Position numbers and translations under genes: made by a program | Notes under the pieces: model-generated | What the model saw: the letters and a program-made list of their open reading frames with translations, nothing else | What the model was told of the DNA's origin: nothing | Databases searched by the model: none | In this document: piece after piece, positions 2,430 through 60,390 of the stretch | How positions within the stretch are numbered: the stretch's first letter is position 1 | How the letters are laid out: every line of letters starts with the position of its first letter | Source of the DNA: Rhodocyclaceae bacterium | GTDB taxonomy: Bacteria; Pseudomonadota; Gammaproteobacteria; Burkholderiales; Rhodocyclaceae | Assembly: GCA_026415155.1 (NCBI GenBank) | Contig: JAOAHQ010000005.1 | Location: 1-63,630 of the forward strand | Direction of reading: 5' to 3' | Length of the DNA stretch: 63,630 nt

Positions 2430-4193
2430 CTACTTTCGGCGCGCCTTGTCGAGCGTGGCGAGGAATTCGGCGGCGGGCATGAAGCCGACGACGCGCAGCT
2501 CGGCGATTTCGCGGCCATCGCGGAAGAACAGGATGCCCGGCGGGCCAAAGAGGCCGAAGCGCTTCAAAAGCGCCTTGTCCACTGCCGTGTTGCCCGTCAC
2601 ATCGGCTTTGAGCAGCACGAAGTCCTTCATGGCGGCGGCAACGGCGGGGTCGCTGAAGGTGAATTTCTCCATCTCCTTGCAGGGGACGCACCAGGCGGCA
2701 TAAAAGTCGAGCATCACCGGCCGTGTGGCCGTGGCAAGGCGCGCTTCGAACTCGGCCAGCGAGGCGATCTTTTCGAAACTCGGCGCGGAGGGCACGGCCG
2801 CGCCGGCGCTCTTGAGGAATCCCAGAGGCTGCAAGGGATCTCGGCTGCCACCCAAAAGGCCGACGAGCATCGCGGCGCCGGCGACGAAGAGGGCAAGCCC
2901 GATGCCTTTCCAAAAGCGCGCCCAGCCCGAGGCAGCCGGCGGCAGCGGATCGAGGGCGCGCAGGTAGATGGACGGAATGAGGAGCAGCAGCGCCCAGCCG
3001 AGCATGACGGCCCAGCCGGGCAAGACCGGTGAGACGAACCACAAGGCGACGGCCAAGAGCACGACGCCGAAGAATTTTTTGACGGCCTCCATCCATGGCC
3101 CGCTCTTGGGCAGCAGCGAGCGCGAAAAGAGCCCGACGGCGAGGAGCGGCGCGCCCATCCCTAAGCCCATCGCGAAAAGCGCCGCGCCGCCCAAGAGGGC
3201 ATCGCCGGTCTGAGCGATGTAGAGCAGCGCGCCGGCCAGAGGCGCGGCCACACAGGGCCCGACGATGAGCGCCGAGAGCGCGCCCATCAGGGCGATCGCC
3301 GGCAGGCTGCCGCCCTGGCGGTTCGCGGTGTCGGAGAGCTTCGACTGCAGCGCGGCAGGAAGCTGCAATTCGTAAAAGCCGAACATCGAGAGGGCAAGCA
3401 GGACGAAGACGAGCGCGAAGGCGCCGAGCACCCAGGCGTTTTGCAGCGCGGTCGAGAGCAGCGTGCCGGTGAAGCCGGCCGCCACGCCGATGACGGCATA
3501 GGTGAGCGCCATGCCGAGCACATAGGCAAGCGAAAGCAAAAAGGCGCGCGCGTGCGTGACGGCATGGCCATGATTGACGATGATGCCCGAGAGGATCGGG
3601 ATCATCGGAAACACACAAGGCGTCAAGGAGAGCAACAGGCCAAAGCCGAAGAAGCTCAAGAGCGCGACCCAGAAGCTCGCGCCGGCGAGCAAGCCGGCGA
3701 TGCGGCTCGTTTCGCTTTCCGCGCCCGCCGGGGGGTTGGGAGAAGCTTCAGGCGTCGAACTCGGCGCTGGCGGGACGGCGAAGGCCTCGGCTCCCACGGC
3801 GGTGATCCTCACCTCCTGCGTCATCGGCGGATAGCAGACGCCGCCGTCCCAGCAGCCTTGCGAGTCGGCCTTCAGCGTGAAGGGCGGCGCGCCGGCAAGA
3901 AGCGGTATTCTGGCCACCACCGAGCCACGCAGGATCTCGACGCGGCCGAAGAATTCGTCGTCCTTCGCTTCGCCGTTGGGAAGCTGGGCCGGGCCGAGGG
4001 TCGCGCCTATCGCGGCAAAGGCGATCTTGTCCTTATAAAGGTAGTAATCGGGCTTCACATCCCAGCGCGCCTCGATCGTCCGTTCATCGACGAGGCGCGC
4101 CGAGAAAGGATAAGCGGCTTCGGGCTCGAGCGGCTCGGCGGCGCGCGCAAGCGTGCCGAAGAGGACGATGAGGAAGAGAAGCAGCCGCTTCAT
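2430..4193 (-). CDS. dsbD: Thiol:disulfide interchange protein DsbD
   Basis: This 587-residue protein carries the three DsbD modules. A signal peptide and periplasmic alpha domain (Cys pair in GCWDGGVCYPP, about 113-119) come first. An eight-helix membrane domain follows, with TPCVFP and GPCVAAPL cysteines. A C-terminal thioredoxin-like domain has CVPC. It passes electrons from cytoplasmic thioredoxin to periplasmic proteins such as DsbC. The linker between the alpha and membrane domains contains AVPPAPS, encoded by an exact copy of the dispersed 19-base motif. Its start overlaps the cutA stop by four bases (ATGA). Confidence 0.96.
   Translation of the reverse strand: MKRLLLFLIVLFGTLARAAEPLEPEAAYPFSARLVDERTIEARWDVKPDYYLYKDKIAFAAIGATLGPAQLPNGEAKDDEFFGRVEILRGSVVARIPLLAGAPPFTLKADSQGCWDGGVCYPPMTQEVRITAVGAEAFAVPPAPSSTPEASPNPPAGAESETSRIAGLLAGASFWVALLSFFGFGLLLSLTPCVFPMIPILSGIIVNHGHAVTHARAFLLSLAYVLGMALTYAVIGVAAGFTGTLLSTALQNAWVLGAFALVFVLLALSMFGFYELQLPAALQSKLSDTANRQGGSLPAIALMGALSALIVGPCVAAPLAGALLYIAQTGDALLGGAALFAMGLGMGAPLLAVGLFSRSLLPKSGPWMEAVKKFFGVVLLAVALWFVSPVLPGWAVMLGWALLLLIPSIYLRALDPLPPAASGWARFWKGIGLALFVAGAAMLVGLLGGSRDPLQPLGFLKSAGAAVPSAPSFEKIASLAEFEARLATATRPVMLDFYAAWCVPCKEMEKFTFSDPAVAAAMKDFVLLKADVTGNTAVDKALLKRFGLFGPPGILFFRDGREIAELRVVGFMPAAEFLATLDKARRK
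3761..3779 (+). repeat. Dispersed 19-bp motif, exact copy (in dsbD)
   Basis: Exact TCGGCGCTGGCGGGACGGC. It is antisense to dsbD, where it encodes AVPPAPS in the alpha-domain/membrane linker. Confidence 0.9.
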
Positions 4194-4507
4194 GCCGTCG
4201 TCTCGGCGCCCACCCAGTCGAGATATGCCGCGAGGCCCTGCGTAATGGGCACGGCGACAATCTCGGGCAGCTCATAGGGATGCCGGGCGCGGATCGCGGC
4301 CTCGAGCTCGGCATAGCGCTCGCTCGTCGTCTTGATGAGCAGGGGCACTTCGCTGGCTTCTTCGAGCTGGCCTTGCCAGCGATAGACCGAGTGACAAGGG
4401 GCGAGGACATTCACGCAGGCCGCAAGCCGCGCCTCGACGAGATGCGCGGCGAGCGCCTTCGCGCTGTCGCTATCGGGAAGATTGGTGAGCACCAGGAGCG
4501 CAGTCAT
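4190..4507 (-). CDS. cutA: CutA-type divalent-cation tolerance protein
   Basis: The 105-residue protein has the CutA1 pattern: LVLTNLPDSDSAKALAAHLV at the N-terminus, AACVNVLAPCHSVYRWQG in the middle, and PYELPEIVAVPI near the end. CutA proteins form small trimers. A role in copper tolerance was proposed from E. coli, where cutA also neighbours dsbD, but the molecular function is unsettled. The gene is co-transcribed with dsbD (4-base overlap). Confidence 0.95.
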   Translation of the reverse strand: MTALLVLTNLPDSDSAKALAAHLVEARLAACVNVLAPCHSVYRWQGQLEEASEVPLLIKTTSERYAELEAAIRARHPYELPEIVAVPITQGLAAYLDWVGAETTA

Positions 4508-4524
4508 GCTGCTATTCTACGTCC

Positions 4525-5652: not shown

Positions 5653-5659
5653 TTAGAGG

Positions 5660-5842: not shown

Positions 5843-5883
5843 GGGAAGCGCACCTCTCGGGCTCACCCCGCATCGGAGACTCG

Positions 5884-6398: not shown

Positions 6399-6482
6399 GG
6401 GCGCGCAGTTTGCGCCAAAACCGTTTTTTGGTCAATGAGTTCGCTGCGAATGTGAAGATGGTTTCACGCTTTTGCCTCACCG

Positions 6483-6501
6483 TCGGCGCTCGCCAGACGG
6501 C
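6483..6501 (+). repeat. Dispersed motif variant in btuB promoter region
   Basis: TCGGCGCTCGCCAGACGGC differs from the core at three positions and belongs to the CAGACGGC subtype also seen in topB and the esterase gene. It is one of the few intergenic copies and ends five bases before the TATAAT box. Confidence 0.7.
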
Positions 6502-6506: not shown

Positions 6507-6512
6507 TATAAT
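6507..6512 (+). promoter_or_regulatory. Likely -10 box of the btuB operon
   Basis: A perfect TATAAT lies about 10-15 bases upstream of the start of the cobalamin riboswitch, which places the transcription start correctly for the leader RNA. No good -35 hexamer is seen at 16-18 bases; a variant of the dispersed motif occupies that position. Confidence 0.6.
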
Positions 6513-6520
6513 CTCGCTGC

Positions 6521-11217: not shown

Positions 11218-11813
11218 GCGAACGGGAAGAGCGCCACCGTGTGCGCATGCAGCGCAAGAAAGCGCTCATCGACGCGAAAATCGGCGCTGCCGGGACGGCA
11301 CGTGGCGTGTTCCTGGTCCATACCGGCAACGGCAAGGGCAAGAGCAGCGCTGCCTTCGGCCTGCTCGCGCGCGCCCTCGGCCATGGCATGAGGGCCGTGG
11401 TCGTGCAGTTCGTCAAGGGACGTTCGGATACAGGCGAAGAGACCTTCTTCCGCGCGCAGCCGAACGTGCGCTGGCATGTCATGGGCGAGGGCTTCACCTG
11501 GGAGACGCAGGACGACGCAAAGGACGCCGCCGCCTGCCGCACTGCCTGGGAAGCGGCACGGCAGGCACTCGCCGATCCGTACGTCGATCTGGTGATCCTC
11601 GACGAATTCACCTACGCCTTCAAATACCGCTGGCTCGATCTGGCCGAGGCGCTGGCGGCGATCAAAAGCCGGCCGCCGATGCAGCACCTCGTCGTCACCG
11701 GACGTGCCGCGCCAGATGCGTTGATCGCCGCCGCCGACACCGTTACCGAGATGGCACTCGTCAAACACGCTTTCCAGGCCGGTATCCAGGCGATGCCGGG
11801 AGTCGAATGGTGA
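11214..11813 (+). CDS. cobO: Cob(I)yrinic acid a,c-diamide adenosyltransferase
   Basis: This 199-residue protein has the CobA/CobO/BtuR pattern: P-loop HTGNGKGKSSAA, VVVQFVKGR, ILDEFTYAFKYRWL and LVVTGRAAP. It transfers the adenosyl group from ATP to the reduced corrinoid cobalt. It overlaps btuF and cbiA by a few bases, within the riboswitch-controlled operon. Residues IGAAGTA near position 23 correspond to an 18/19 copy of the dispersed motif. Confidence 0.95.
   Translation: MSEREERHRVRMQRKKALIDAKIGAAGTARGVFLVHTGNGKGKSSAAFGLLARALGHGMRAVVVQFVKGRSDTGEETFFRAQPNVRWHVMGEGFTWETQDDAKDAAACRTAWEAARQALADPYVDLVILDEFTYAFKYRWLDLAEALAAIKSRPPMQHLVVTGRAAPDALIAAADTVTEMALVKHAFQAGIQAMPGVEW
11281..11299 (+). 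repeat. Dispersed motif, one mismatch (in cobO)
   Basis: TCGGCGCTGCCGGGACGGC differs at one position from the core and is read in the VGAGGTA frame as IGAAGTA. Confidence 0.75.
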
Positions 11814-13147
11814 GCTGCCCTGCCCTCTTCGTCGCCGCGCCGGCCTCGGGCCACGGCAAGACCACGGTGGTGGCGGCGCTGGCGCGGCTCAATACGCGAC
11901 TCGGCCGCCGCGTGCGCGTCTTCAAGTGTGGGCCGGATTTCCTCGATCCGATGATCCATGCGCACGCTTCTGGCCACCCCTGCGAGAACATCGATCTCAT
12001 GATGTGCGGCGAGGATGATGCGCGCTTTCGCCTCGCGCGCGCGGCCGCCGAGGCCGATCTCGTCCTCGTCGAAGGCGTGATGGGGCTTTACGATTCCGAG
12101 CCGACGGGCGCGGAACTCGCGCGGCGGCTGGGCCTGCCGATCCTCCTCGTCATCGATGCTGCGGCGATGGGAGCGAGCTTCGGCGCCATCGCCTGGGGGC
12201 TCAAGACCTACCGCGACGGCGCGCCGATCACGCATGCCTTGGCCAATCGCGTCGCGGGGGAATTCCATGCCGGGCTGTGCCGCGAAAGCCTGCCGGAAGG
12301 CATCCTCTGGGCCGGCAGCCTGCCGCGCGCGGCCGAGGCCGCGCTGCCCGAGCGGCATCTAGGGCTCTTGCCCGCCGCCGAGATCGCGCATCTCGATGCC
12401 CGGCTCGAGCGGCTGGCCGATCTTCTGGCGCACACGCCGCTCGCCACGCTGCCGCCCGCCGTCGATTTTCGTGCCGTCCCGCCAGCGCCGACTTTTCGAG
12501 GTGAGTCGGCGCCCGGCGGGACGTCCCCTTTTCCGCCAGCGCCGACTTTCACGCGCCCGCTCGAAGGCCGCGTCATCGCCGTCGCGCGCGACGCGGCCTT
12601 CTGCTTCCTCTATCCCGCCAATCTCGAATGCCTGGAAGCGCTGGGCGCACGTCTTGCCTTCTTCTCGCCGCTTCACGATGCGGCGCTGCCCGAGTGCGAC
12701 GCCGTCTGGCTGCCTGGCGGCTATCCGGAGCTGCATGCAGAAACGATCGCCGCCAATGCCGCGATGCGGCAGGCGCTCCAGGCCCATGTCGCCGCGGGCA
12801 AGCCCTTGCTTGCCGAATGCGGCGGCCTGATGGCCTGCTGCGAGACGCTCCACGACCTCACCGGACGCGCGCATCGCATGTGGGGGCTGCTGCCGGGAGT
12901 GACGCGCATGCAAAAGGAGCTCGCCGGCCTCGGCCTCCTCGCCGCCGAGCTGCCCGAAGGCCGGCTTACCGGCCACAGCTTCCACTTCTCGACCTTCGAA
13001 AGCCCGCTCGCCCCCGTGGCGCAGGCGGTCAGCCTCGCTGGCAGGGGCGGCGAGGCGATCTGGCGACGAGGGCGCCTCACCGCGAGCTACATGCACTGTT
13101 ACTTTCCGTCGAATCCGCGCGCTGCAGCCAGTCTTTTCCTGTCTTGA
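11807..13147 (+). CDS. cbiA: Cobyrinate a,c-diamide synthase
   Basis: This 446-residue protein has an N-terminal dethiobiotin-synthetase-like ATPase domain (P-loop ASGHGKTT, CGPDFLDPMIH) and a C-terminal class-I glutamine amidotransferase-like domain (ECGGLMACC with the catalytic Cys, GHSFHFST). It amidates the a and c side chains. The interdomain linker (about 223-250) is made from three successive copies of the dispersed motif in alternating orientation, reading [15 protein letters not shown] and PPAPTF. The ATG at 11807 overlaps cobO; GTG at 11810 is possible. Confidence 0.94.
   Translation: MVSCPALFVAAPASGHGKTTVVAALARLNTRLGRRVRVFKCGPDFLDPMIHAHASGHPCENIDLMMCGEDDARFRLARAAAEADLVLVEGVMGLYDSEPTGAELARRLGLPILLVIDAAAMGASFGAIAWGLKTYRDGAPITHALANRVAGEFHAGLCRESLPEGILWAGSLPRAAEAALPERHLGLLPAAEIAHLDARLERLADLLAHTPLATLPPAVDFRAVPPAPTFRGESAPGGTSPFPPAPTFTRPLEGRVIAVARDAAFCFLYPANLECLEALGARLAFFSPLHDAALPECDAVWLPGGYPELHAETIAANAAMRQALQAHVAAGKPLLAECGGLMACCETLHDLTGRAHRMWGLLPGVTRMQKELAGLGLLAAELPEGRLTGHSFHFSTFESPLAPVAQAVSLAGRGGEAIWRRGRLTASYMHCYFPSNPRAAASLFLS
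12473..12491 (-). repeat. Dispersed 19-bp motif, exact copy (cbiA linker, 1 of 3)
   Basis: Exact core on the minus strand, extended by the flanking AAA. Read in cbiA as AVPPAPT. Confidence 0.9.
12506..12525 (+). repeat. Dispersed motif variant (cbiA linker, 2 of 3)
   Basis: TCGGCGCCCGGCGGGACGTC is a degenerate plus-strand copy between two minus-strand copies. Confidence 0.6.
12534..12549 (-). repeat. Dispersed motif, partial copy (cbiA linker, 3 of 3)
   Basis: CCGCCAGCGCCGACTT covers the 5' two-thirds of the motif on the minus strand and is read as PPAPT. Confidence 0.65.
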
Positions 13148-17239: not shown

Positions 17240-18155
17240 GGGCGAGGCTCCCCAGGGCAAAGAGAAAGAGCCACAGCCAGAGGCCGCGCTCGACGAGCGC
17301 GACGGCGCGGCGAATATCGGCGGCGGAGGGCGAGGGACCAAAGCCTAGCGGCGGGCGGATTTCGTCGCGGCCCGCGTAGCGTGCCGTCCCGCCAGCGCCG
17401 ACTTTCAGCGCGCCGCAGCCGGCGGCCATTACCGGGCCGGCATTCGGGCTCGGCCAGTGTTTCGCCTGCCGCTGCCAGCAGGCAAGCGCCGTGCGCATGC
17501 TGCCCAAAAGCGCATAGGTGAGGGCGGTAAGGCGCGCCGGGATGAAGCCGAGCAGATCGTCCGCCCGCGCCGCCGCCCAGCCGAAGTAACGCCGCCGCGC
17601 ATCGCGGTGGCCCCACATCGCATCGAGCGTGTTGGCGAGGCGAAAGAGCAGCGCCCCGGCCCCGCCGAGGACAAAAAACCAAAAGAGCGCGCCAAAGACG
17701 GCATCGTGGCCGTTTTCCAGCACCGATTCGACGGCGGCGGCCGCTACCCCATTTTCATCGAGATGCGCCGTCTCGCGCGTGACGATGCGGCTCAGAGCTT
17801 CCCGCGCCGCCGGCAGATCGCCTTGGCCGAGCGGCGCGGCGACGGCCTCGGCGTGTTCGGCGAGGCTCTTTGCGCCCAGCGCGAAATAGAGCAGCAGCAG
17901 ATCGAAGAGCGGCTGGGCAAGCCACCCCGCGAGCAAAACGGGCGGCATGACGAGGATGCACCAGGCCGCGAGCCCGCGCAGGCGGTTCGCGACCGGCTGC
18001 CCCGGCGCGCCGCGGCGCAAGGCGCGCTCGATTTGGTCGGCCAGTCGCCCAAAGCCGACGAGGGGATGGAAGCGGCGCGGTTCGCCCAAGAGCCGGTCGA
18101 GCAAGACGGCGGCGAGCGCGAGCAGAGGCGGTGTGAGCGAGTCGCCCAGGCTCAT
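17232..18155 (-). CDS. cbiB: Adenosylcobinamide-phosphate synthase
   Basis: This is a 307-residue membrane protein of the CbiB/CobD family: LLDRLLGEPRRFHPLVGFG, SRIVTRETAHLDE, ESVLENGHDAVFGALFW, RLANTLDAMWGHR and NAGPVMAAGCGAL. It attaches aminopropanol phosphate to adenosylcobyrate. [10 protein letters not shown] (about 254-263) is encoded by an exact dispersed-motif copy and occupies the place where relatives have a similar glycine-rich loop before the RPPLG segment. Both ends overlap neighbours, indicating one operon. Confidence 0.94.
   Translation of the reverse strand: MSLGDSLTPPLLALAAVLLDRLLGEPRRFHPLVGFGRLADQIERALRRGAPGQPVANRLRGLAAWCILVMPPVLLAGWLAQPLFDLLLLYFALGAKSLAEHAEAVAAPLGQGDLPAAREALSRIVTRETAHLDENGVAAAAVESVLENGHDAVFGALFWFFVLGGAGALLFRLANTLDAMWGHRDARRRYFGWAAARADDLLGFIPARLTALTYALLGSMRTALACWQRQAKHWPSPNAGPVMAAGCGALKVGAGGTARYAGRDEIRPPLGFGPSPSAADIRRAVALVERGLWLWLFLFALGSLAHA
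17383..17401 (-). repeat. Dispersed 19-bp motif, exact copy (in cbiB)
   Basis: Exact core on the minus strand, same sense as cbiB and read as KVGAGGTA with its AAAG extension. Confidence 0.9.
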
Positions 18156-19375: not shown

Positions 19376-20848
19376 ATGCGAAAATCGGCGTTGATGAAAG
19401 CGCTGATGATCCAAGGTTGCACGTCAGACGCCGGCAAGAGCGTGCTCGTCGCGGCGCTGTGCCGCCTCCTCGCGCGGCGCGGCGTGAAGGTCGCGCCGTT
19501 CAAGCCGCAGAACATGGCCTTGAACTCGGCGGTCACCGTCGAGGGTGGCGAGATCGGCCGTGCGCAGGCGCTGCAGGCGCAGGCGGCGGGGCTCATCCCC
19601 CGCATCGACTTCAATCCGGTGCTCCTGAAGCCCAGTTCCGACCGCCGCGCGCAGGTGATCGTGCATGGCAAGGTCGTCAGCGAGCTCGATGCGCGCGCCT
19701 ATCACGACTACAAGCGCATCGCGATGGCCGCGGTGCTCGAGTCCTGGCAGCGCCTGCGCGACGAGTTCGAGGTCGTGATCGTCGAAGGCGCGGGCAGCCC
19801 GGCCGAAGTCAATCTAAGAGACCGCGACATCGCCAACATGGGCTTTGCCGAGGCCGTGGACATCCCCGTCTGGCTCGTCGGCGACATCGACCGCGGCGGG
19901 GTGCTCGCGCACATGGTCGGCACGCTCGAATGCTTGACGGCGAGCGAACGGGCGCGGGTGACGGGGCTCGTGATCAACAAGTTCCGTGGCGACCTCGGCC
20001 TGTTGCAGCCGGGCCTCGACTGGCTGGAGCGGCGCACCGGCAAGCCGGTGCTCGGCACGATTCCGTATCTTCCCGGGCTCTTCCTCGATGCCGAGGATGC
20101 GCTAGAGCGGCATGTCGTCCGCGAAGGTGAGGCGAAGCTCAAGGTGGCGGCGCTTGCCTACCCGCGCCTCTCGAACGCCACCGATCTCGACCCGCTGCGG
20201 CTTCATCCCGAGGTGGATTTCCGCTGGGTCGGGCCGGGGCAGCAGCTTCCTTCGTGCGATCTTCTCGTGCTGCCCGGCTCGAAGGCGGTGCAGGCGGATC
20301 TTCATTGGCTGCGTGAGCAGGGCCATGAAGCAGCGATCAAGCGTCATCTGCGCTATGGCGGCAAACTGATCGGCATTTGCGGCGGCTTCCAGATGCTCGG
20401 GCGCGTCTTGCACGATCCGCTCGGCCTCGAAGGCGCGCCCGGCAGCCTCACCGGGCTCGCGCTCCTCGAGTGCGAAACGACGCTCGAGGCCGAAAAGCAA
20501 TTGCGCAACGTGACGGGTTATCTGAAAGTCGGCGCTGGCGAGACGGCACGGGTGGCGGGCTACGAGATCCATATGGGCGTCACCCGAGGGCCGGCGCTTA
20601 AGCGTCCTGCCGTCTGGCTCGACGAGGGGCGCAGCGATGGCGCGCTCTCGGAGGATGGGCAGATTCTCGGCACTTACTGCCACGGTCTCTTCGACCATCC
20701 CGAGGCTTTTACGGCCTTGCTCGCCTGGGCCGGTGCGGCTTCACTCGCGCCGCTCGACCGCGCCGCGCGGCGCGAGGCCGATCTAGAGCGGCTTGCCGAT
20801 GCGGTCGAGGCGGCGCTTGCTCGGCCCTGGGAAGCTTGGCTGGGATAG
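19376..20848 (+). CDS. cobQ: Cobyric acid synthase
   Basis: This 490-residue protein has an ATPase domain ([48 protein letters not shown]) and a C-terminal glutamine amidotransferase domain (CGGFQMLG with catalytic Cys, YCHGLFDHP with catalytic His). It amidates four corrin side chains. [18 protein letters not shown] (about 385-402) includes a one-mismatch copy of the dispersed motif immediately before the conserved GYEIHMG motif. ATG at 19394 (MKALMIQG) is an alternative start. Confidence 0.96.
20529..20547 (+). repeat. Dispersed motif, one mismatch (in cobQ)
   Basis: TCGGCGCTGGCGAGACGGC, preceded by AAAG and read as KVGAGETA. Confidence 0.85.
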
Positions 20849-23607: not shown

Positions 23608-24648
23608 ATGGATTTCTGCATTAACCCTCCTCCCCCCGATCTCGATGACGCGCTGCGCGCCGCGATCGATCAGAAGACCAAGCCCTTGGGCAGCCTGGGG
23701 CGCCTTGAGCGGCTTGCCTTCCAGATCGGCCGGGTGCGGCAATCGCTGCGGCCTCGGCTCGAAAAGCCGCACATCGTCGTCTGCGCCGGCGATCATGGCG
23801 CGGCCAAGGCCGGCATCTCGGCCTATCCGCAGGAAGTGACCTGGCAGATGGTCGAGAATTTCTTGGCCGGCGGCGCGGCGATCAACGTCTTCGCGCGCGC
23901 CAACGGCCTCGAACTTCTCATCGTCGATTGCGGCGTGGCGCACGACTTCGGCCCGCGCCCCGGTCTCGTCGATGCGAAAGTCGGCGCCGGCGGGACGGCC
24001 TCCTATCTCGAAGGGCCGGCGATGAGCGAGGCGCAATGCCGCCAGGCGCTGGAAAACGGCGCGGCGCTCGTCGCGCAACTTGCGGCAGCGGGCTGCAACG
24101 TCGTCGGCTTTGGTGAAATGGGCATCGGCAACACCGCGTCGGCCTCCCTCATCACGCATTGCCTCGCCGGCGCGCCGCTTTCCGAGTGCGTCGGCCGCGG
24201 CACGGGGCTTGACGATGCGGGCCTCGCGCGCAAACGGGCGCTCTTGCAGCAGGCGCTCGAAGCCTGGCCTGAGCGCAGCGCCGAGCCCTTGGCGGTGCTC
24301 GCGCGCTACGGCGGCTTCGAGATCGCGACGATGGCAGGCGGCATGCTGGAAGCCGCGCAGCGCAAAATGCTCGTGCTCGTCGACGGCTTCATCTCGGGCG
24401 CGGCGGCCCTGGTCGCTGCGCGCCTTGCGCCGGCCTTCCTCGACTTTGCGGTGTTTTCCCACCTCTCCCAGGAGCCGGGGCACCGGCGGCAGCTTGCCGC
24501 CCTCGGCGCCGAGCCGCTGCTCGATCTCGACCTGCGCCTGGGTGAAGGCACCGGAGTGGCGCTTGCCTGGCCGCTCGTCAAGTGTGCGGCGGCGATGCTT
24601 GCCGAAATGGCGAGCTTCGCCGAAGCAGGCGTTTCCCAAGCGGTCTAG
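23608..24648 (+). CDS. cobT: Nicotinate-nucleotide-dimethylbenzimidazole phosphoribosyltransferase
   Basis: This protein of about 346 residues has CobT motifs: [51 protein letters not shown] and [12 protein letters not shown] with the catalytic Glu. It makes alpha-ribazole phosphate. The segment [17 protein letters not shown] lies where the family has a KV-x-PGTxN-like segment, and it is encoded by an 18/19 copy of the dispersed motif. This copy therefore looks like substitution within an existing conserved stretch rather than an insertion. An upstream ATG at 23581 is also in frame. Confidence 0.95.
23981..23999 (+). repeat. Dispersed motif, one mismatch (in cobT)
   Basis: TCGGCGCCGGCGGGACGGC preceded by AAAG, read as KVGAGGTA. 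Confidence 0.85.
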
Positions 24649-25482: not shown

Positions 25483-26244
25483 ATGCTGCGCCGCGAAGCC
25501 GAAGCCTTCTTCGCCGCGCTGCGCTTCTTCACGCGGATTCCCGTGCCCGCCTGGGTCGGCCACTCGGCCGAGCAATTGAACCGCGCGGCGCGCTGGTTTC
25601 CGGCCGTGGGCCTGCTCGTCGGCGCGGTGGGCGCGGGCGTGACGCTCGCGGCGCTCGCCTTCTTTCCGCCCCTCGTCGCCGTGCTGCTCGGCATGGCGGC
25701 GACGCTCCTGCTCACCGGCGCCTTCCACGAGGATGGGCTCGCCGACACTTTCGACGGCCTGGGCGGTGGCCACACACGCGAGGACGCGTTGCACATCATG
25801 CAGGATTCGCGCCTGGGCAGCTTCGGCGCATTGGCGCTCTTCATCGTGCTCGGCCTCAAGGCGGCCGCGCTCGCCGCCCTTGCCGTCGGCCCAGCGCCGA
25901 CTTTTCTCGCCGCCTCCCTCGCGGCGCATGCCCTCTCGCGTTTCGCTTCGACGACGCTGATCTTCGCGCTCGACTATGCGCGTCCCACGGGCAAGGCCAA
26001 GCCCTTGGCCACGCGCCTTGCTGCCGGCGAGCTTGCCTTCGCGGCGCTGTGGGCGCTCGCCCCAGCCCTGTGGCTGCCGCCGCTTCAGGCCGCCCTTGCG
26101 CTTGCGCTCGCCGCGGCGGTCACGCTAGTGATGGCGCGCTGGCTCGTGCGGCGTCTGGGCGGCTATACCGGCGATGGCCTCGGCGCCACCCAGCAGCTCG
26201 CGGAACTCGCGTTTTACCTGGGGCTTGTATGCGCCTGTGGCTGA
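25483..26244 (+). CDS. cobS: Adenosylcobinamide-GDP ribazoletransferase (cobalamin synthase)
   Basis: This is a 253-residue polytopic membrane protein with the CobS signatures: FFTRIPVP near the N-terminus, GAFHEDGLADTFDGLGGG, DSRLGSFGALAL and GGYTGDGLGATQQL. It joins the activated corrinoid and alpha-ribazole. VGPAPTFLA (about 134-142) includes a degenerate copy of the dispersed motif in a loop between helices. It overlaps the phosphatase gene cobC by 16 bases. Confidence 0.94.
   Translation: MLRREAEAFFAALRFFTRIPVPAWVGHSAEQLNRAARWFPAVGLLVGAVGAGVTLAALAFFPPLVAVLLGMAATLLLTGAFHEDGLADTFDGLGGGHTREDALHIMQDSRLGSFGALALFIVLGLKAAALAALAVGPAPTFLAASLAAHALSRFASTTLIFALDYARPTGKAKPLATRLAAGELAFAALWALAPALWLPPLQAALALALAAAVTLVMARWLVRRLGGYTGDGLGATQQLAELAFYLGLVCACG
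25882..25900 (-). repeat. Dispersed motif variant (in cobS)
   Basis: Minus-strand copy with three mismatches clustered in the middle, flanked by the usual AAA. Read as AVGPAPT. Confidence 0.65.
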
Positions 26245-28976: not shown

Positions 28977-29879
28977 ATGACCGCACCCAATACTCCCCCC
29001 AGCGCGGCCGGCGGCCGCATCGTCGTCGCCACCGATCTCTCCGAGGCGGCGCAGCTGGCCGTCGAGCGCGGCGCGCGCCTTGCCCGGGCGCTCGGCGCGG
29101 AGCTTTCCTTGCTGCACGTCTTCAACGACGGCCTGTGGGCGACGCTCACGCAGCTTTACGACGCGAAACACTGGCAGGGCAAGGAACCGGCGCTCGCCGC
29201 GCGCGAGCAGCTCTCGCGGCTGGCGGCGGAACTCGCCGCCCGGCACGGCCTGCCCGTGAAGGCCGAGACCCTCACCGGCCGCGCGGCGGCGACCATCGCC
29301 GCCCATGTCGTCGAGTGCAAGGCGCGGCTCCTCGTCGTCGGCGAGCATGGCGAGAGCTGGATCGGCGACACGGTGGTCGGCGGCACGGCGCAAAAGGCGC
29401 TCAAGCTCTCCGGCGTGCCGGTGCTCCTGGTACGCCGTCCCGCCAGCGCCGATTATCGGCGACTCATCGTCGCGACGGATTTTTCCGCCTGCGCAGAGCG
29501 CGCCGCGCGCCTTGCGCGCGAACTCTTTCCAGCCGCCGAACGCCTGCTGCTCCATGCCTATGCGGTCGCCTTCGAAGGCCGCATGCGGCTGGCCGGCGCG
29601 CACGATGCCGACATCGAGCGCTACCGCGCCGCCGAGCGCCGCCGCGCCGAAGCGCGCTTGCAGGAGTTCGCCGCCCAATGCGGCCAGGCTTGCGACTGGC
29701 GCTTCCTGCTCGAATACGGCAGCCCCGCGGCGGTGATCTGCGAGCAGGCGCTACAGCATCAAGCCGATCTCGTCGTCATCGGCCGGCACGGCGGCAGCGA
29801 AGTCGAAGAGCGCTTCCTCGGCAGCGTGACGCAAAACGTGCTCTACAACGCGCCTTGCGACGTGCTGCTCTCGCCCTGA
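28977..29879 (+). CDS. Tandem universal stress protein (UspA-type)
   Basis: This 300-residue protein has two Usp domains. The first begins RIVVATDLSEAAQ and has LLVVGEHGESWIGDTVVGGTAQ. The second begins RLIVATDFSACAERA and has the complete ATP-binding motif VIGRHGGSEVEERFLGSVTQNVL. An exact dispersed-motif copy lies at the domain boundary, here read as RRPASADY, a different frame from all other copies. It precedes the P-type ATPase by 10 bases and probably starts that operon. Confidence 0.92.
   Translation: MTAPNTPPSAAGGRIVVATDLSEAAQLAVERGARLARALGAELSLLHVFNDGLWATLTQLYDAKHWQGKEPALAAREQLSRLAAELAARHGLPVKAETLTGRAAATIAAHVVECKARLLVVGEHGESWIGDTVVGGTAQKALKLSGVPVLLVRRPASADYRRLIVATDFSACAERAARLARELFPAAERLLLHAYAVAFEGRMRLAGAHDADIERYRAAERRRAEARLQEFAAQCGQACDWRFLLEYGSPAAVICEQALQHQADLVVIGRHGGSEVEERFLGSVTQNVLYNAPCDVLLSP
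29434..29452 (-). repeat. Dispersed 19-bp motif, exact copy (in usp gene)
   Basis: Exact core on the minus strand, at the junction of the two Usp domains. Read as RRPASAD, the only coding copy outside the two usual frames. Confidence 0.88.
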
Positions 29880-39065: not shown

Positions 39066-40152
39066 GGGTCTCTTCCGTCTTCTTCTTGCGCGGCGAGCGG
39101 GGCTTGCGGGTGGCCTGGGCGGGTGGCTCGACCGGCTGTTCGACCGACACCGCCTCGGCAGCCGGCGCAGGCTGGACGGCTTCGGCCGCCTTGGGCTTGC
39201 GCGCGCGCGCACGGCCTCTGCTGCGGGTCTTCGGCTCGGTGGAAGGGGGCGCCTCGGCTGCGGCTGCCACACTCGGCGCTGGCGGGACGGCCGCTTCCGC
39301 TGCGACCGGCGCTTCCGGCGGCTGCTCGACGCGCTCCGGCTCGGCGGGCGCCTCAGCCGGTGAGGCCGGCGTCACCGTGCTGCGGCGCTTCACATAGGCG
39401 CTGTTGGCCTCGCGGCCGAACTCGAGCAGGCCGCGCCGCGCCGCCTCTTCGAGCAGCGCACCGAAGGTCTTGAAGCCGTGGTAGGCCTCGTTGAAGCCGG
39501 GGTGCCGCCGCTTGATCGCTTCTTTGAGCACCGAGGCCCAGACGCGCTCGTCTTCCGAGCGGTCTTCGAGCAGGGCTTCGAGCGTCGCGGCCGCCATCTC
39601 GAGGCCTTTCACGCGCCGCGCCTCCATTTCCTGCGGGTCGCCGGGCTTCTTCGCCTGCTTCTCGTCGCGGCTCTTTTTGCGCATCAAATCGTCGATGTAG
39701 ATGAACTCGTCGCAGTTGGCGATCAAGAGGTCGGAAGTCGATTGCTTGACGCCGACGCCGATGACGCGCTTGGCGTTTTCCCGGAGCTTGGAGACGAGCG
39801 GCGAGAAGTCCGAATCGCCCGAAATGATGACGAAGGTATTGACGTGCGATTTCGTGTAGCACAAATCGAGCGCGTCGACGACCATGCGGATGTCAGCCGA
39901 GTTCTTGCCCGATTGGCGCACGTGCGGGATTTCGATGAGCTCGAAGTTGGCCTCGTGCATCGCCGCCTTGAAGCTCTTGTAGCGTTCCCAGTCGCAATAG
40001 GCCTTCTTGACGACGATGCTGCCCTTGAGCAGGAGCCGTTCCAAGACCGGCTTGATGTCGAATTTTTCGTATTGCGCATCGCGCACGCCGAGCGCGATGT
40101 TCTCGAAGTCGCAGAAGAGCGCCATGCTGACGTCGTCGGCAGAGGTGGCCAT
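39058..40152 (-). CDS. NYN-domain (LabA/DUF88) ribonuclease-like protein with C-terminal OST-HTH/LOTUS-like domain
   Basis: This 364-residue protein has an N-terminal NYN/PIN-like domain ([25 protein letters not shown] and [15 protein letters not shown] supply the acidic metal-binding residues). An OST-HTH/LOTUS-like winged helix follows (about 210-270: [36 protein letters not shown]). The tail is a low-complexity Ala/Pro/Glu stretch ending in KPRSPRKKK. The tail includes AVPPAPS from an exact dispersed-motif copy. It probably acts in RNA cleavage or binding. Confidence 0.9.
39273..39291 (+). repeat. Dispersed 19-bp motif, exact copy (in NYN gene)
   Basis: Exact core antisense to the gene. 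Read as AVPPAPS in the low-complexity tail. Confidence 0.9.
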
Positions 40153-43675: not shown

Positions 43676-44280
43676 GGCCGGCCATTATGCCGCAGCAATC
43701 CGGCGAAGACGAGGATTTCGTCGAGATAGTCCTCCCAGCGCGTGAAGGAATGATCCCCGCCCTCGAGCACCGTCTGCCGTGCGCCGGCATAGCGGGCCAC
43801 GGCGGCGCGGTAATCGAGCACCTCATCCCCCGTCTCGACGAGCAGCCAATAGCGCACGGGATCAGAAAGCCGCGGCACTTCGAGGTGGCGCAATTCTTCG
43901 AGGTGTGCGCGCGTGAATTCGAAGCGCTCGCCGGTATAGACCCAGGTCTGCGGGCCGAGATAGCGTTCGAGCTCGAGCGCCGCGACGACGGCGGGATTGA
44001 CGAGCACGGCCTTGAGTCCATGCCGCTCGGCCAGGTAAGTGGCGTAATAGCCGCCGAGGGAGGAGCCGATGAGCGTCACCGCGGCCGTCTGGCCAGCGCC
44101 GACTTGGGCGAGCAGCGCTTCGGCGAGCGCAATCGCCGCTGCGGGCGAGGCTGGCAGCTGCGGGCAGAGGAAACGGTCGGCAAAGCCGCGCTCGGCCATG
44201 CGGCGCGCGAGGGCCTGGGCCTTCTTCGACTGCGGCCCGCTCGTGAAGCCGTGCAGATAGAGGATCAGGGGGCGGTCCAC
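43672..44280 (-). CDS. YqiA/UPF0227-type alpha/beta-hydrolase esterase
   Basis: This 202-residue protein has [17 protein letters not shown] at the N-terminus, the nucleophile elbow [15 protein letters not shown], the Asp-containing ETGDEVLDY and the catalytic His in [17 protein letters not shown] at 44280 is the likely start, overlapping the uppP stop by 16 bases; upstream sequence is shared with uppP in another frame. [11 protein letters not shown] (about 54-64) comes from a dispersed-motif variant. The substrate is unknown. Confidence 0.88.
44084..44102 (-). repeat. Dispersed motif variant (in esterase gene)
   Basis: Minus-strand copy of the CAGACGGC subtype with two mismatches to the core. 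Read as QVGAGQTA. Confidence 0.8.
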
Positions 44281-46381: not shown

Positions 46382-48901
46382 TCAGCCGCTTGCAGACTTC
46401 GCGCGGCTCTTCTTCGCCGTCTGGCCAGCGCCGACTTTGGCGGCGGTGTCCGCCTTTTCCGCCTTTGCCGCGCGCTGCTCGAACTCGAAGCCGATCTTGC
46501 CGTCCGCGCCGCGCACGAGGTAGGCGGAAAACTTCTTCTTCGTGCGGTTCGAGACGAAGCCCTTGAGCAAGGAGGTGCGGCCGGTCTCGAGGAGCTTCTT
46601 CATCTCGGCGGCGGAAATCTCCTGCTGCAGGATCAGCTTGCCGGCGCGGAAGTCGCAGCTTCTGCCTGCGCCGACGGCCTTCTCGCAGACATAGGCCATC
46701 GGCTGTTCATAGACGCGCGCGCCGCACTTGGGGCACGGCCCGAGCGGTGTCTGGCCGCTGAAATCGACCGCTTCGGCGGCCTCTTCCTCGTTGCCGAAGT
46801 CGAACTTCGGCTGGTGATCCTCGTCGAGCCGCACCACGGCGGAAAAGGCGCGCCCCTGTTTGCTGCGAAAGCCGGCGAGCGGCCCGATCTGGCGGTGCTG
46901 CAAGAGCTCGTCGATCTCCGCGGCTTCCCACTGGCGGCCGGCGACGACCTTCCAGAGCTTGTAGTCGCAACGCTCGCACTTGAAGTGGCGATAGGTCTCG
47001 TGGAGCCTGCCGCCGCATTTCGGGCACGGCGACTGCAAGGTGCCGAAGTCGGCATCGTTGAGTTCCCCCGTCTTGATGCGCTCGACCATCTCGCGCGTCT
47101 CTTTGACGATGTGGGCCATGAACTCTTCGCGTTTCAGGCGCCCGTGCTCCATCTCGCGCAGCTTCCATTCCCACAGGCCGGTGAGCTCCGGCGAACGGAT
47201 CTCATCGACTTTGAGCTGCTCGAGCGCGAAGAGAAGGTTGAAGGCCTTGGCGGTCGGCACGAGCTCGCGGCCGTTGCGATGGACATATTCTTCCTGGATC
47301 AGGCCCTCGATGATCGCCGCGCGCGTGGCCGGCGTGCCGAGGCCCCGCTCGCGCATCGCCTCGCGCAGTTCCTCGTCCTCGACGAGCTTGCCGGCCCCTT
47401 CCATCGCGGTCAGCAATGTGGCTTCGGTAAAGCGCGGCGGGGGTTTCGTCTGCTGCGCCTTGACCTCGACGTCGTTCGTCCACACGCGCTCCGCTTTCTG
47501 CACAGGGGGCAGCTGCGGGTTTTCCTCATCATCAAGGGCGGCTTCCTTGCCATAGACGGTGAGCCACCCGGGGGTCACGAGCACCTTGCCGACGGTCTTG
47601 AAGGGCTCGCCCTCGACGCGCGTGATGCGCGTCGTGACGAGGTATTCGGCGGCCGGATAGAAGATGGCGATGAAGCGCTTGACGACGAGTTCGTAGAGCT
47701 TCTGCTCGGCTTCAGTCAAATGCTTTGGCGCCGTGCCCGTCGGGATGATCGCGAAGTGATCGGACACCTTCGCGTCGTTGAAGATGCGCTTGGTCGGAAT
47801 CACCCAGCCGTTCCTGAGCACCGCGGCGGCATGTTCCCCGAGCGGCGAATCGGCGAGCGCCCGCATGGTGTCCTTGACGGCGGGCAGCATGTCCTCGGGC
47901 AGATAGCGACTGTCGGTTCTCGGGTAGGTGAGCACCTTGTGCTTTTCATAGAGCGCCTGGGCCAGCGCGAGCGTGGTGCGCGCCGAGAAGCCAAAGCGGC
48001 CGTTGGCCTCGCGCTGCAGCGAGGTGAGGTCATAGAGGAGGGGACAGGCCTCGGTCTTGGGCGTGGCTTCCTCCGTGACCTCGCCAGGCCTGCCCAGGCA
48101 TTTCTTGCGCAGCGCTTCGGCTTTTCCCGCATCCCAGAGGCGTTCGGCGCGGGCGTGCTCATCCCCGCCTTTCTTGAATTGCTCGTCGAACCACTTGCCG
48201 CGGTAGGTGCCGGCCACGGCCTGGAACTCGGCTTCGACCTCCCAGTAATCGCGCGGCTCGAAGCGCTTGATCGCCTTCTCGCGCTCGACGAGGATCGCCA
48301 GGGTCGGCGTCTGCACGCGGCCGACCGTGGTCTTGTAAAAGCCGCCTTGTTGCGAATTGAAGGCCGTCATCGCGCGCGTGCCGTTGATGCCGACGAGCCA
48401 GTCGGCTTCCGCGCGGCAGCGCGCCGCATCGGCGAGGGGCAGCATTTCCTCGTCAGTGCGCAGATGGGCGAAGCCCTCGCGGATCGCCTGCGGCGTCATC
48501 GACTGCAGCCATAAGCGGCGGATCGGCTTGTCGACCTTCGCATGCTGCACGATGTAGCGGAAGATCAGCTCGCCCTCGCGCCCTGCGTCGCAGGCATTGA
48601 TGAGCGCCACGACGTCCTTGCGCTTGGCAAGCTTCGTGAGCAGTTTCAAGCGGTCGGCGGTCTTCTCGATCGGCTGCAGGGTAAAGCGCGGCGGAATCAC
48701 CGGCAGATGGGCAAAGCTCCACTTGCCGCGCTTCACTTCATATTCCTCGGGCACGGCGAGCTCGAGCAGATGGCCGACCGCCGAGGAAAGCACGTAGTGC
48801 TCGCTCTCGTAATAGTCGCCCTCGCGCGAGAAGCCGCCCAGGGCGCGCGCGATGTCCTGCGCGACCGAGGGCTTTTCGGCGATGATCAATTGCTTGCTCA
48901 T
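46382..48901 (-). CDS. topB: DNA topoisomerase III
   Basis: This 839-residue type IA topoisomerase has a Toprim domain (LIIAEKPSVAQDIARALGG, NACDAGREGELIFRYI) and the active-site Tyr in TYPRTDSRYLPEDM. It is followed by MRERGLGTPATRAAIIEGL and C-terminal zinc-finger-like modules (CPKCGGRLHETYRHFKCERC and CPKCGARVYEQ). It decatenates DNA. The C-terminus AAKVGAGQTAKKSRAK contains a dispersed-motif variant. Confidence 0.95.
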   Translation of the reverse strand: MSKQLIIAEKPSVAQDIARALGGFSREGDYYESEHYVLSSAVGHLLELAVPEEYEVKRGKWSFAHLPVIPPRFTLQPIEKTADRLKLLTKLAKRKDVVALINACDAGREGELIFRYIVQHAKVDKPIRRLWLQSMTPQAIREGFAHLRTDEEMLPLADAARCRAEADWLVGINGTRAMTAFNSQQGGFYKTTVGRVQTPTLAILVEREKAIKRFEPRDYWEVEAEFQAVAGTYRGKWFDEQFKKGGDEHARAERLWDAGKAEALRKKCLGRPGEVTEEATPKTEACPLLYDLTSLQREANGRFGFSARTTLALAQALYEKHKVLTYPRTDSRYLPEDMLPAVKDTMRALADSPLGEHAAAVLRNGWVIPTKRIFNDAKVSDHFAIIPTGTAPKHLTEAEQKLYELVVKRFIAIFYPAAEYLVTTRITRVEGEPFKTVGKVLVTPGWLTVYGKEAALDDEENPQLPPVQKAERVWTNDVEVKAQQTKPPPRFTEATLLTAMEGAGKLVEDEELREAMRERGLGTPATRAAIIEGLIQEEYVHRNGRELVPTAKAFNLLFALEQLKVDEIRSPELTGLWEWKLREMEHGRLKREEFMAHIVKETREMVERIKTGELNDADFGTLQSPCPKCGGRLHETYRHFKCERCDYKLWKVVAGRQWEAAEIDELLQHRQIGPLAGFRSKQGRAFSAVVRLDEDHQPKFDFGNEEEAAEAVDFSGQTPLGPCPKCGARVYEQPMAYVCEKAVGAGRSCDFRAGKLILQQEISAAEMKKLLETGRTSLLKGFVSNRTKKKFSAYLVRGADGKIGFEFEQRAAKAEKADTAAKVGAGQTAKKSRAKSASG
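46416..46434 (-). repeat. Dispersed motif variant (3' end of topB)
   Basis: Same CAGACGGC subtype as the esterase copy, in the sense of topB. Read as KVGAGQTA. Confidence 0.85.
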
Positions 48902-58888: not shown

Positions 58889-58901
58889 CCGGCATCGCGC
58901 C

Positions 58902-60359
58902 ATGCGCTTTCTGCCCGTCTTCCGCGCGCTCGGCATCATCATCGCGATCTTCGGCCTCGCGATGCTCGCTCCCCTGGGCGTCTCGCTCTACTTCGCCGAC
59001 GGCGCGACGGGGGCCTATGACGAGGCGATCGCCCTCACCCTGGGCTGCGGGCTCTTCTTGTGGCTCGCCGCCTCGCGCGGCGAGAAGACGGAGCTCCACG
59101 TGCGCGACGGTTTCCTGCTCGTCGCGCTCACCTGGGCCGTCTTGCCCGTCTTCGGCGCCTTGCCGCTCCTCTTCCAGATTCCAGGGCTGTCCTTCACCGA
59201 CGCCTATTTCGAGGCGACCTCGGGACTCACCGCCACCGGCTCGACCCTGCTCGTCGGCCTCGATCGACTGCCGATCTCGATCAACTTCTGGCGCACCTTC
59301 ATGCACTGGCTCGGTGGCATGGGGGTCATCGTGCTCGCCGTGGCGATCCTGCCGCTGTTGGGCATCGGCGGCCGGCAGCTTTTCAAGGCCGAGGTGCCGG
59401 GGCCGATGAAGGAGGCGAGCCTGACGCCGCGCATCGCCGAGACCGCCAAGGGCCTGTGGGTCGTTTATCTGATCCTCTCCGTCGCCTGCACGGCGGGCTT
59501 CATCCTCGCCGGCATGGAAAAATGGGAGGCGCTCATGCACGCCTTCAGTGTCATGGGGCTGGGCGGCTTTTCGACCAAGGACGCGAGCCTCGGCCATTTC
59601 AACAGCGTGGCCATCGAGCTCGTCGCGATGGGCTTCGCGCTGCTCTCCGGCATCAACTACGCGACGCACTTTCTCGCCTTCCGCAGCCGCTCGCTTTCGC
59701 CCTACCGGCGCGATGCCGAATTGCCTTTCTATTTCAGCGTCATGGCGGTGAGCATCCTGGGGCTCACCTTTTATCTCATGCAGTTCGACGTCTATGACGA
59801 TGCGTGGACGGCGCTGCGCTATGTCGCCTTCCACTCGATTTCACTCGCCACCTCGCTGGGTTTCGCCACCACCGACTACGCCGCCTGGCCGACGTTCGGC
59901 CAATTGTGGATCCTCTTCCTGGGCAGTTTTTACGCCTGCTCCGGCTCGACGGGCGGCGGCATCAAAATGATGCGCGCCATCATCCTCTACAAGCAGGTCT
60001 ATCGCGAGATCCTGCGCGCCATGCACCCGCGCGCCGTCCATCCGGTGCGGCTCGGCGCTCAGGTCGTCCCCGACAACGTGCTCCACGCCGTGCTTGCCTT
60101 CAGCTTCATCTACATGGTGACGATCGTCTCGCTCACGCTCGTCATGTCCGCTTCCGGCCTCGAACTCATCACCGCCTTCTCGGCCGTCGTCGCCACGCTC
60201 AACAACACCGGCCCGGGCCTGGGCACCGTCGGACCGGCGAGCAATTTCTCACCGCTTTCCGACTTCCAGACCTGGGTCTGCTCCTTTGCCATGATCCTTG
60301 GCCGCCTCGAGCTTTTCACGATTCTCGTCGTGCTCTCACCCGCTTTTTGGCGCAAATGA
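58902..60359 (+). CDS. trkH: Trk potassium transporter TrkH, first copy
   Basis: This is a 485-residue membrane protein with four pore repeats: TSGLTATGSTLL, SVMGLGGFSTKDAS, LATSLGFATTDYA and LNNTGPGLGTVGP. The GxG-type selectivity segments are present. It is one of two adjacent paralogues of similar length; the intergenic spacing to the second is 48 bases. Confidence 0.94.
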   Translation: MRFLPVFRALGIIIAIFGLAMLAPLGVSLYFADGATGAYDEAIALTLGCGLFLWLAASRGEKTELHVRDGFLLVALTWAVLPVFGALPLLFQIPGLSFTDAYFEATSGLTATGSTLLVGLDRLPISINFWRTFMHWLGGMGVIVLAVAILPLLGIGGRQLFKAEVPGPMKEASLTPRIAETAKGLWVVYLILSVACTAGFILAGMEKWEALMHAFSVMGLGGFSTKDASLGHFNSVAIELVAMGFALLSGINYATHFLAFRSRSLSPYRRDAELPFYFSVMAVSILGLTFYLMQFDVYDDAWTALRYVAFHSISLATSLGFATTDYAAWPTFGQLWILFLGSFYACSGSTGGGIKMMRAIILYKQVYREILRAMHPRAVHPVRLGAQVVPDNVLHAVLAFSFIYMVTIVSLTLVMSASGLELITAFSAVVATLNNTGPGLGTVGPASNFSPLSDFQTWVCSFAMILGRLELFTILVVLSPAFWRK

Positions 60360-60371
60360 GGCAACGATGAG

Positions 60372-60390
60372 GCCGTCTTGCCCGCGCCGA
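60372..60390 (-). repeat. Dispersed motif variant (between the two trkH genes)
   Basis: Minus-strand copy with three mismatches, flanked by AAAG. One of the few intergenic copies. Confidence 0.65.

Follow-up and report, generated by a model that had tools for sequence, protein, structure and literature searches.

A dispersed 23-bp word in Sulfuritalea, Rugosibacter and related betaproteobacteria as a candidate third DNA uptake signal

The window considered here is a stretch of 63,630 nucleotides, contig JAOAHQ010000005.1 (positions 1 to 63,630) in assembly GCA_026415155.1 of a Rhodocyclaceae bacterium, and it carries dispersed copies of an asymmetric 23-bp unit, AAAGTCGGCGCTGGCGGGACGGC, that recurs at about one copy per 4 kb when up to 3 mismatches are allowed. 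This word is a candidate DNA uptake signal of the type represented by the DNA uptake sequence (DUS) of Neisseriaceae and the uptake signal sequence (USS) of Pasteurellaceae. A preliminary description of the window had reported a recurrent 19-mer, TCGGCGCTGGCGGGACGGC, at seven exact positions (3761, 12473, 17383, 29434, 32570, 35136 and 39273), all of which are correct, and had held the recurrence to exceed chance; with 7 exact matches and 16 at up to 3 mismatches, against a mean of 0.33 and a maximum of 2 in 100 shuffles, it does. Most of the near copies it listed were likewise recovered, except that those at 12506 and 12534 are degenerate arms of a separate ~80-bp element (12470-12550) and do not match within 3 mismatches, while a copy at 39162 had been missed. 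The copies and the genes that hold them are given below, together with the competence-associated gene dprA. Coding and noncoding status was assigned by a home-made hexamer-based open reading frame caller, and the name cbiA rests on the preliminary description and a weak similarity to CobQ.

3757..3779, plus strand: exact 19-mer lying antisense to a dsbD-like gene (minus, 2430-4193), in the frame that gives AVPPAPS
6479..6501, plus strand: copy with 3 mismatches, noncoding, ending 10 bp upstream of a cobalamin riboswitch (6512-6694)
11277..11299, plus strand: copy with 1 mismatch, within the gene for cob(I)yrinic acid a,c-diamide adenosyltransferase; 49/49 motif-free orthologues align here without a gap
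12470..12550, minus strand: ~80-bp dispersed element with a motif-like arm, an inverted arm and the exact 19-mer (12473-12491), inside a cbiA-like gene (11807-13147)
17383..17405, minus strand: exact 19-mer in cbiB (17232-18155, minus), VGAGGTA frame, gapless against 55/55 motif-free orthologues and kept in three same-genus species
20525..20547, plus strand: copy in cobQ with 1 mismatch; three same-genus species retain the motif
23977..23999, plus strand: copy with 1 mismatch in cobT, not found here in genome G080, present in Rugosibacter (L034), Sulfuritalea (L033) and L037 loci
25882..25904, minus strand: copy with 3 mismatches, antisense in cobS
29434..29456, minus strand: exact 19-mer lying antisense to a universal-stress-protein gene and using the third frame (RRPASAD)
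32566..32588, plus strand: exact 19-mer towards the 3' end of a P-type cation ATPase gene
35132..35154, plus strand: exact 19-mer in an NADH:quinone oxidoreductase/Mrp antiporter subunit gene
39158..39180, plus strand: degenerate copy with 3 mismatches, antisense in an NYN-domain gene
39269..39291, plus strand: exact 19-mer in the NYN-domain gene just named, again antisense; the G080 orthologue has it exactly too
44084..44106, minus strand: copy with 2 mismatches in a UPF0227 gene
46416..46438, minus strand: copy with 2 mismatches in the C-terminal tail of a bacterial DNA topoisomerase gene
48947-50026, minus strand: dprA, adjoining the topoisomerase gene that carries a copy
60372..60394, minus strand: copy with 3 mismatches between two TrkH-family genes

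The word is not a peculiarity of the window. The genome to which the window belongs (G000, a bin of 2.38 Mb, 83.5% complete) holds 135 exact 19-mers, 72 forward and 63 reverse, whereas the reversed control word is absent, so that one asymmetric word is over-represented on both strands and the genome-wide count that had been proposed as a check lies far above chance outside the window. Its anatomy was studied in 454,097 bases of G000, namely the window and 390 kb of further stretches that were partly selected for holding exact copies; with up to 3 mismatches allowed, this sample contains 110 copies, of which 39 are exact, compared with 3 for the control. An alignment of the 92 copies with at most 2 mismatches delimits a 23-bp unit, AAA(G)TCGGCGC(T)GGC(GG)GACGGC, outside which there is no comparable conservation and no longer unit around solitary copies. 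The AAAG flank noted in the preliminary description is borne out by this alignment (A 77%, A 82%, A 89% and G 63% at positions -4 to -1), the TCGGCGC and ACGGC blocks are 99-100% conserved, and the middle positions are more variable. The core figures are inflated because copies were picked by similarity to the 19-mer, and the information content of 32.8 bits is overstated for the same reason; the A run, conserved at 77-89%, and the outer boundary are unaffected.

Occurrence of the word is largely restricted to part of one family. The exact 19-mer was found in 40 of 199 same-family genomes and reaches at least 9 copies in 19 of them, which belong to genera g1, g2, g9, g38, g46 and g64; controls were 0. 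All six sampled genomes of genus g1 are rich (135, 51, 118, 183, 124 and 213 exact 19-mers), and one of them, G019, holds 294 copies at up to 2 mismatches with none of the control. Among 80 named CobQ loci, the genomes of 40 were searched at up to 2 mismatches: high counts occur in two Sulfuritalea sp. genomes (159 and 263 copies), two Rugosibacter sp. genomes (115 and 130) and one Rhodocyclales bin (133), and the other 35 hold 0-8 copies (controls 0-7), with 0-6 in Azonexus, Thauera, Accumulibacter and Ralstonia. The two dialects described below were covered by a single pattern; applied at up to 2 mismatches to 300 genomes of the order, it gave 415 copies in G000, 275 in G019, 427 in G080 and 228 in G046, 0-6 in five further genomes of family f1, and at most 7 in each of 291 sampled genomes from the order's other families (controls up to 2). 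In two genomes of those other families the few copies are clustered, four of five within 4.6 kb of one contig in one case (G272:C3:26361-30943) and in pairs on contigs C34 and C45 in the other (G319), which suggests DNA transferred from motif carriers.

The word also changes along the phylogeny. In an unbiased search for over-represented 12-mers, the top 12-mer was part of the motif in G000, G008, G038, G113, G069 and two Rugosibacter loci, while G199 (the bin with L029, EFPC_121) yielded a different one, AAAGTCAGCCGT, seen 7 times against 0.005 expected. No such word emerged from G023, G029, G003 and G062 (60-80 kb each) or from Azonexus, Accumulibacter and Ralstonia loci; the motif was not the top 12-mer in the Sulfuritalea loci (32 kb), yet 8 motif-like sites lie there, and the G168 stretches searched consist mostly of N. 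A second dialect, AAAGTCAGCCGTGGCGACACGCC, has the same length as the first and differs from it at 6 of 23 positions. The top 12-mer of G199 belongs to this second dialect, which has 19 sites in 51.7 kb of that genome when up to 6 mismatches are allowed (control 1), and genomes of genus g66 hold 278, 314, 172 and, in an incomplete genome, 5 copies (controls 0) with no exact first-dialect 19-mer, whereas g1 genomes hold 0-1 second-dialect copies. Smaller shifts comprise a GCGATACGGC end in Sulfuritalea, a TGGTGAG centre in Rugosibacter, TCGGTGC in G008 and TCGACGC in the L037 bin.

In a CobQ tree of 56 rows, 11 first-dialect rows and one second-dialect row fall within a single 14-row clade (support 99/95), with L037, whose TCGACGC word is a variant, counted as first dialect, and with sampled carriers of g9, g38, g46, g64 and g66 absent under those handles. 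The named Sulfuritalea and Rugosibacter are labelled Sterolibacteriaceae, and the organism of the window is a betaproteobacterium near both; an alphaproteobacterial origin, considered on the strength of gene content, is rejected by a CobQ scan and this tree. The remaining two rows of the clade, G023 and G029, have few copies each: the former has 6 exact first-dialect 19-mers and 10 second-dialect matches, and the latter 6 matches to the two-dialect pattern. These copies are read as relics, and the simplest reading of this one gene tree would be that the word was gained once and then eroded in two lineages. Restriction to the family and dialects along the phylogeny are borne out by the genome counts and by one gene tree, which lacks some carrier genera. 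A few copies of words between the dialects were also seen in G023, G029 and the g11 genomes G010, G073 and G121; they may be left over from a lost system or may represent another weak dialect.

Within genes, most of the copies that could be aligned have not been inserted. Among the 79 coding copies in the G000 sample, 24 have an orthologue spanning the site and 17 have a motif-free one (at least 6 mismatches), leaving 7 of the 24 without any. Aligned with the best motif-free orthologue, 12 of the 17 are gapless, 4 show another kind of indel (a class that includes the copy at 25882, where the carrier is 9 residues shorter) and 1 shows an insertion of at least 5 residues. Several of these alignments are weak, with flank identity down to 3/20; when flank agreement of at least 10/20 residues is required, 7 copies remain, of which 5 are gapless and 2 show another indel, with no insertion among them. 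Motif-free orthologues do not carry the same codons; the preliminary description would have taken such codons in them as a refutation. The cbiB site illustrates the prevailing pattern, as the site, where LGVALGGAAIYHG becomes another peptide, is matched without a gap by 55/55 motif-free orthologues and the motif occurs in three same-genus species. The cobQ and cobT sites are less simple: 5/54 motif-free cobQ orthologues are gapless, and against none of them does the site show 5 or more inserted residues, while 42/51 motif-free cobT orthologues are gapped (by one residue in the inspected cases) and 9/51 gapless. The cobT motif is present in G000 and in the Rugosibacter, Sulfuritalea and L037 loci; the three aligned same-genus species lack it at up to 3 mismatches and differ there by substitution only. 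Copies inside genes thus appear to arise by substitution or recombination.

Third codon positions within the motif are conserved. In codons that specify the same residue, third positions are identical in 90/110 cases within the motif against 1188/1876 in the flanks (p 5e-5), and in 72/92 against 1026/1624 without the cbiA element (p 0.003); these values come from 25 alignments of 12 copies, with several species per copy, and are too small because the alignments are not independent. The earlier statement that all but two copies in the window are coding agrees with the caller, which places 6483 and 60372 in noncoding DNA. The companion claim that coding copies use one of two frames, giving VGAGGTA or AVPPAPT, with one exception (29434), is true of the window, where frames were taken from coordinates, and becomes a mere preference in the 454 kb, in which 55 of 79 coding copies follow those two frames and all six are used unequally (32, 23, 11, 10, 2 and 1).

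Copies are found in coding DNA in 79/110 cases in G000 and 44/64 in G080, genomes in which 93% and 90% of the DNA codes; spacers are therefore favoured, with 31/110 and 20/64 copies noncoding. Noncoding copies tend to follow genes closely, 21/31 and 17/20 lying within 60 bp of a stop against random noncoding expectations of 0.366 and 0.271. A terminator role was considered as the main function and is weak, since few copies form stems (among coding copies, 1/79 in G000 and 0/44 in G080 have a stem of at least 8 bp starting at the 3' end). Spacing at up to 3 mismatches is fairly even in three genomes: the coefficient of variation (CV) of the gaps is 0.60 against 0.90 at random in G000 (89 gaps, 0/2000 simulations as low), 0.70 against 0.85 in G080 (50 gaps, 4% as low) and 0.46 against 0.84 in G038 (14 gaps, 0.25% as low).

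The word is enriched on the core chromosome and rare in DNA that has probably been acquired. Two contigs of G019, C2 (149 kb, of which 140 kb was read) and C3 (103 kb), are probably plasmids, judging from size, contig count and G+C content, and together contain 1 copy (3 mismatches) over 242.6 kb. The density of 21.7 copies per 100 kb in 60 kb of the G019 chromosome predicts about 53; chance counts on them are somewhat lower because their G+C is lower (0.55 and 0.58 against 0.65). In a viral collection of 2.9 million contigs, the exact 23-mer was found in 40 stretches, occurring once in each of 38 of them.

The chief alternative is that the word is the binding site of an intracellular protein that organises or recombines the chromosome, such as a Chi-like site, a site like the FtsK orienting polar sequences (KOPS) or that of a nucleoid-associated protein, and is confined to the main chromosome. 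Conserved third positions and near absence from the two secondary contigs of G019 would fit such a site, fairly even spacing is likewise expected of a structural one, and in G080 all but one of the 20-kb stretches sampled (14 of 15) have 3-6 copies, the exception having none. Along the 2.74-Mb chromosome of G080, however, neither strand nor regional bias was detected: forward copies number 13, 14, 6, 10, 5 and 10 by chromosome sixth, and reverse copies 11, 12, 9 and 10 in the four sixths covered (to 1.78 Mb). Polarity or clustering of the KOPS or Chi type was thus not found there, with the reverse strand followed to 1.78 Mb and the origin not located, and the orientation bias that the preliminary description had named as possible support for a functional signal was not found either. 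DUS and USS do not need such a bias. Chromosomal sites of the KOPS or Chi type are usually much shorter, or few and intergenic, and replacement of one dialect by another between related genera is known behaviour of uptake signals. The recombination or chromosome-maintenance motif suggested earlier is weakened by the lack of polarity and by dialect replacement; it is the foremost competitor and, all considered, rather unlikely. The single empty G080 stretch (L266, G080:C1:1850001-1870000; no copy at up to 3 mismatches) is possibly acquired DNA.

A small mobile or repeat element, comparable to repetitive extragenic palindromic (REP) sequences with their REP-associated tyrosine transposases (RAYT), to Rickettsia palindromic elements or to miniature inverted-repeat transposable elements (MITE), might instead insert its own copies. 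Part of the material behaves in this manner. The cbiA triple copy, the one insertion case (at least 5 residues inserted relative to 17/36 motif-free orthologues), is part of an ~80-bp element that is found at dispersed sites, carries motif arms of either orientation, is 87-96% identical among the rows listed in G019, G080 and G159 and is sometimes tandem with 54-bp spacing; at least 43 rows were counted by eye in these genomes, including overlapping tandem rows. The upstream inverted arm of this element accompanies 5/110 copies in G000, and Y1 transposases were detected in 6 of the 16 carriers searched (G187, G001, G069, G008, G113 and G203). The other 10, including five of the six g1 genomes (G000, G019, G080, G126 and G159), lack Y1/RAYT transposases; solitary copies have no longer unit, and of the 17 copies with motif-free orthologues 12 are gapless against the best of these and 1 is an insertion. 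Nor is a self-hairpin of the word maintained, since pair 8-15 is broken in 35 of the 110 G000 copies and the sole two-sided change affects pair 3-19, for which reason the motif was also rejected as a hairpin RNA. RAYT/REP activity is thereby rejected as the main source, and the mobile element proposed in the preliminary description survives for the cbiA triple copy and not for most copies; as a general explanation it is improbable.

A further possibility is that the word is another kind of genome-wide recognition mark, read for instance by a restriction or other self/non-self system. Any self mark would account for marking of the whole chromosome together with the scarcity of copies on the two secondary contigs; known restriction sites, however, are far shorter than this partly degenerate 23-bp word, and such a mark is considered very improbable. 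Chance, or convergence of proteins on a VGAGGTA or AVPPAPT peptide, to which the two preferred frames would lend some colour, is scarcely credible given six frames, both orientations, noncoding copies, conserved third positions and controls of zero to a few.

Machinery for competence and type IV pili is present in the window's genome. It includes ComEC on contig G000:C13, a ComP_DUS-family pilin on G000:C25 followed by prepilin-like frames taken by eye for pilV, pilW and pilX, and dprA, which the preliminary description had correctly placed in the window. ComEC and ComP_DUS permit the motif and do not predict it: they do not separate carriers from non-carriers because they are near-universal in the family, and competence-gene presence is therefore uninformative as a discriminator. 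Accordingly, the link to competence genes that had been envisaged as support could not be shown.

Hundreds of asymmetric copies that mostly arose without insertion, conserved third positions and a preference for spacers near stop codons, taken jointly with fairly even spacing, near absence from probable plasmids, restriction to one clade and replacement of dialects, lead to the proposal that the 23-bp word is a third DNA uptake signal of the DUS/USS type, unrelated in sequence to both. On the genomic patterns described, this is probably what the word is, and of the explanations offered in the preliminary description the DNA-uptake-type signal is the best supported, given hundreds of copies, their presence in relatives and scarcity in other families, the usual absence of insertion, and the dialects. 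To our knowledge, words for self-recognition in DNA uptake have so far been described in two bacterial families only, and we know of no other class that shows the full trait set of DUS and USS. A literature search, with preprints and most subscription papers outside its scope, gave no match for the word itself, and among the titles listed none announces an uptake signal for Rhodocyclaceae, Rhodocyclales or Sterolibacteriaceae.

Under the uptake proposal, a DNA receptor at the cell surface, most likely a type IV minor pilin, would prefer fragments that bear the word. Such fragments would represent kin DNA, entering by the pilus/ComEC route and then recombining. Chance near-copies would be favoured repeatedly and spread by molecular drive wherever the protein sequence or spacer tolerates them, and a shift in receptor specificity could be followed by a genome-wide shift of the word, giving rise to dialects.

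Several observations weigh against the uptake interpretation, the awkward features being few terminator-like pairs, the length of the word, the lack of even spacing in two genomes and near-universal competence genes. A stem of at least 8 bp starts at the 3' end of only 4/31 noncoding copies in G000 and 0/20 in G080. At 23 bp the motif has roughly double the length of the ~9-12 nt signals named in PMC12616744. With 11 gaps each, G113 falls short of significantly even spacing (11% of simulations reach as low a CV) and G008 shows the reverse tendency (85%), and the exact copies of G080 taken alone are spaced about randomly (CV 1.13 against 0.98). ComEC occurs in 194/199 and ComP_DUS pilins in 185/199 family genomes, carriers or not; conversely, no ComEC match was obtained in the second-dialect carriers G149 and G179 (85% and 80% complete) and no ComP_DUS match in the carrier G138 (9 exact copies). 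The weak orthologue alignments, the dependence among third-position comparisons, and the lower G+C of the two G019 contigs whose plasmid status is a matter of judgement belong to the same account.

The fuller claim is that this is an independently evolved third uptake signal, by which one betaproteobacterial clade (Sulfuritalea, Rugosibacter and relatives) recognises its own DNA: a 23-bp word that exists in several dialects, is read by a putative receptor, is eroding in two sister lineages and raises a barrier to gene exchange between dialects. In this complete form it is moderately likely. If true, self-specific uptake evolves repeatedly, beyond the two known families and in free-living environmental bacteria, and natural competence is predicted for these poorly studied organisms. 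The dialects would provide a fresh series for identifying receptors by co-evolution and for tests of species barriers. Why uptake signals exist is a long-open question, which would become testable in a new lineage with both a dialect switch and apparent erosion.

Other features of the window stand apart from the word. A dispersed repeat of ~216 bp (21265-21480) has terminal inverted repeats, AACCCAGATTGTCCATT and AATGGACAATCTGGGTT, and many copies in G000, G019 and G080, several of which sit at contig ends; it is a MITE-like element. A third dispersed repeat of ~100-180 bp with a CACCAAGACACCAAGAACACC core occurs at 1105-1278, 33630-33807 and 63347-63500, two copies being direct and one inverted. 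A match to 6S RNA lies at 5658-5839 on the minus strand (48.1 against a gathering score of 46.4 bits), and the TrkH-family genes at 58902-61862 are arranged in tandem, with ~75% DNA likeness over two 300-bp stretches.

Comparison with known systems sets the word apart from repeat elements. Rickettsia palindromic elements are short repeats placed in frame inside genes, and are palindromic insertions of ~100-150 bp, whereas the word here is 23 bp, asymmetric and mostly present without insertion. REP sequences and bacterial interspersed mosaic elements (BIME) with RAYT resemble it as dispersed short repeats, and the ~80-bp element with its inverted arm adds to the likeness; in contrast to them, most tested solitary copies are not insertions, 10/16 carriers have no Y1 transposase, and instead of an imperfect palindrome with conserved pairing the pairs are broken without compensation, save for one two-sided change.

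Among uptake signals, copies of USS and DUS are spaced more evenly than random. The spacing of uptake signals has been related to conversion fragments (PMC2397512). The Pasteurellaceae USS is, like the present word, an asymmetric and partly degenerate motif that starts with an A run: the extended Hin-USS given in PMC12616744 begins AAAGTGCGG, where the word here reads AAAGTCGGC, a resemblance that is probably fortuitous. The USS belongs to another bacterial class and has another sequence, and the present word differs further in having G+C-rich conserved blocks and no downstream AT-rich tail. Unlike the DUS of Neisseriaceae, whose receptor is ComP, the candidate word is an unrelated sequence of 23 bp rather than ~12 bp, forms few of the terminator-like pairs that are common in Neisseria, and occurs where ComP_DUS-family pilins do not discriminate carriers. 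It shares with the DUS hundreds of dispersed copies in both coding and spacer DNA, a bias to the core chromosome, restriction to a family and division into dialects, and Neisseriaceae are also Betaproteobacteria (PMC3630211, PMC2397512 and PMC12616744). Apart from spacing, the traits that lead to the uptake proposal are together those of DUS and USS (PMC3630211, PMC2397512, PMC1852404, PMC2346458 and PMC12616744).

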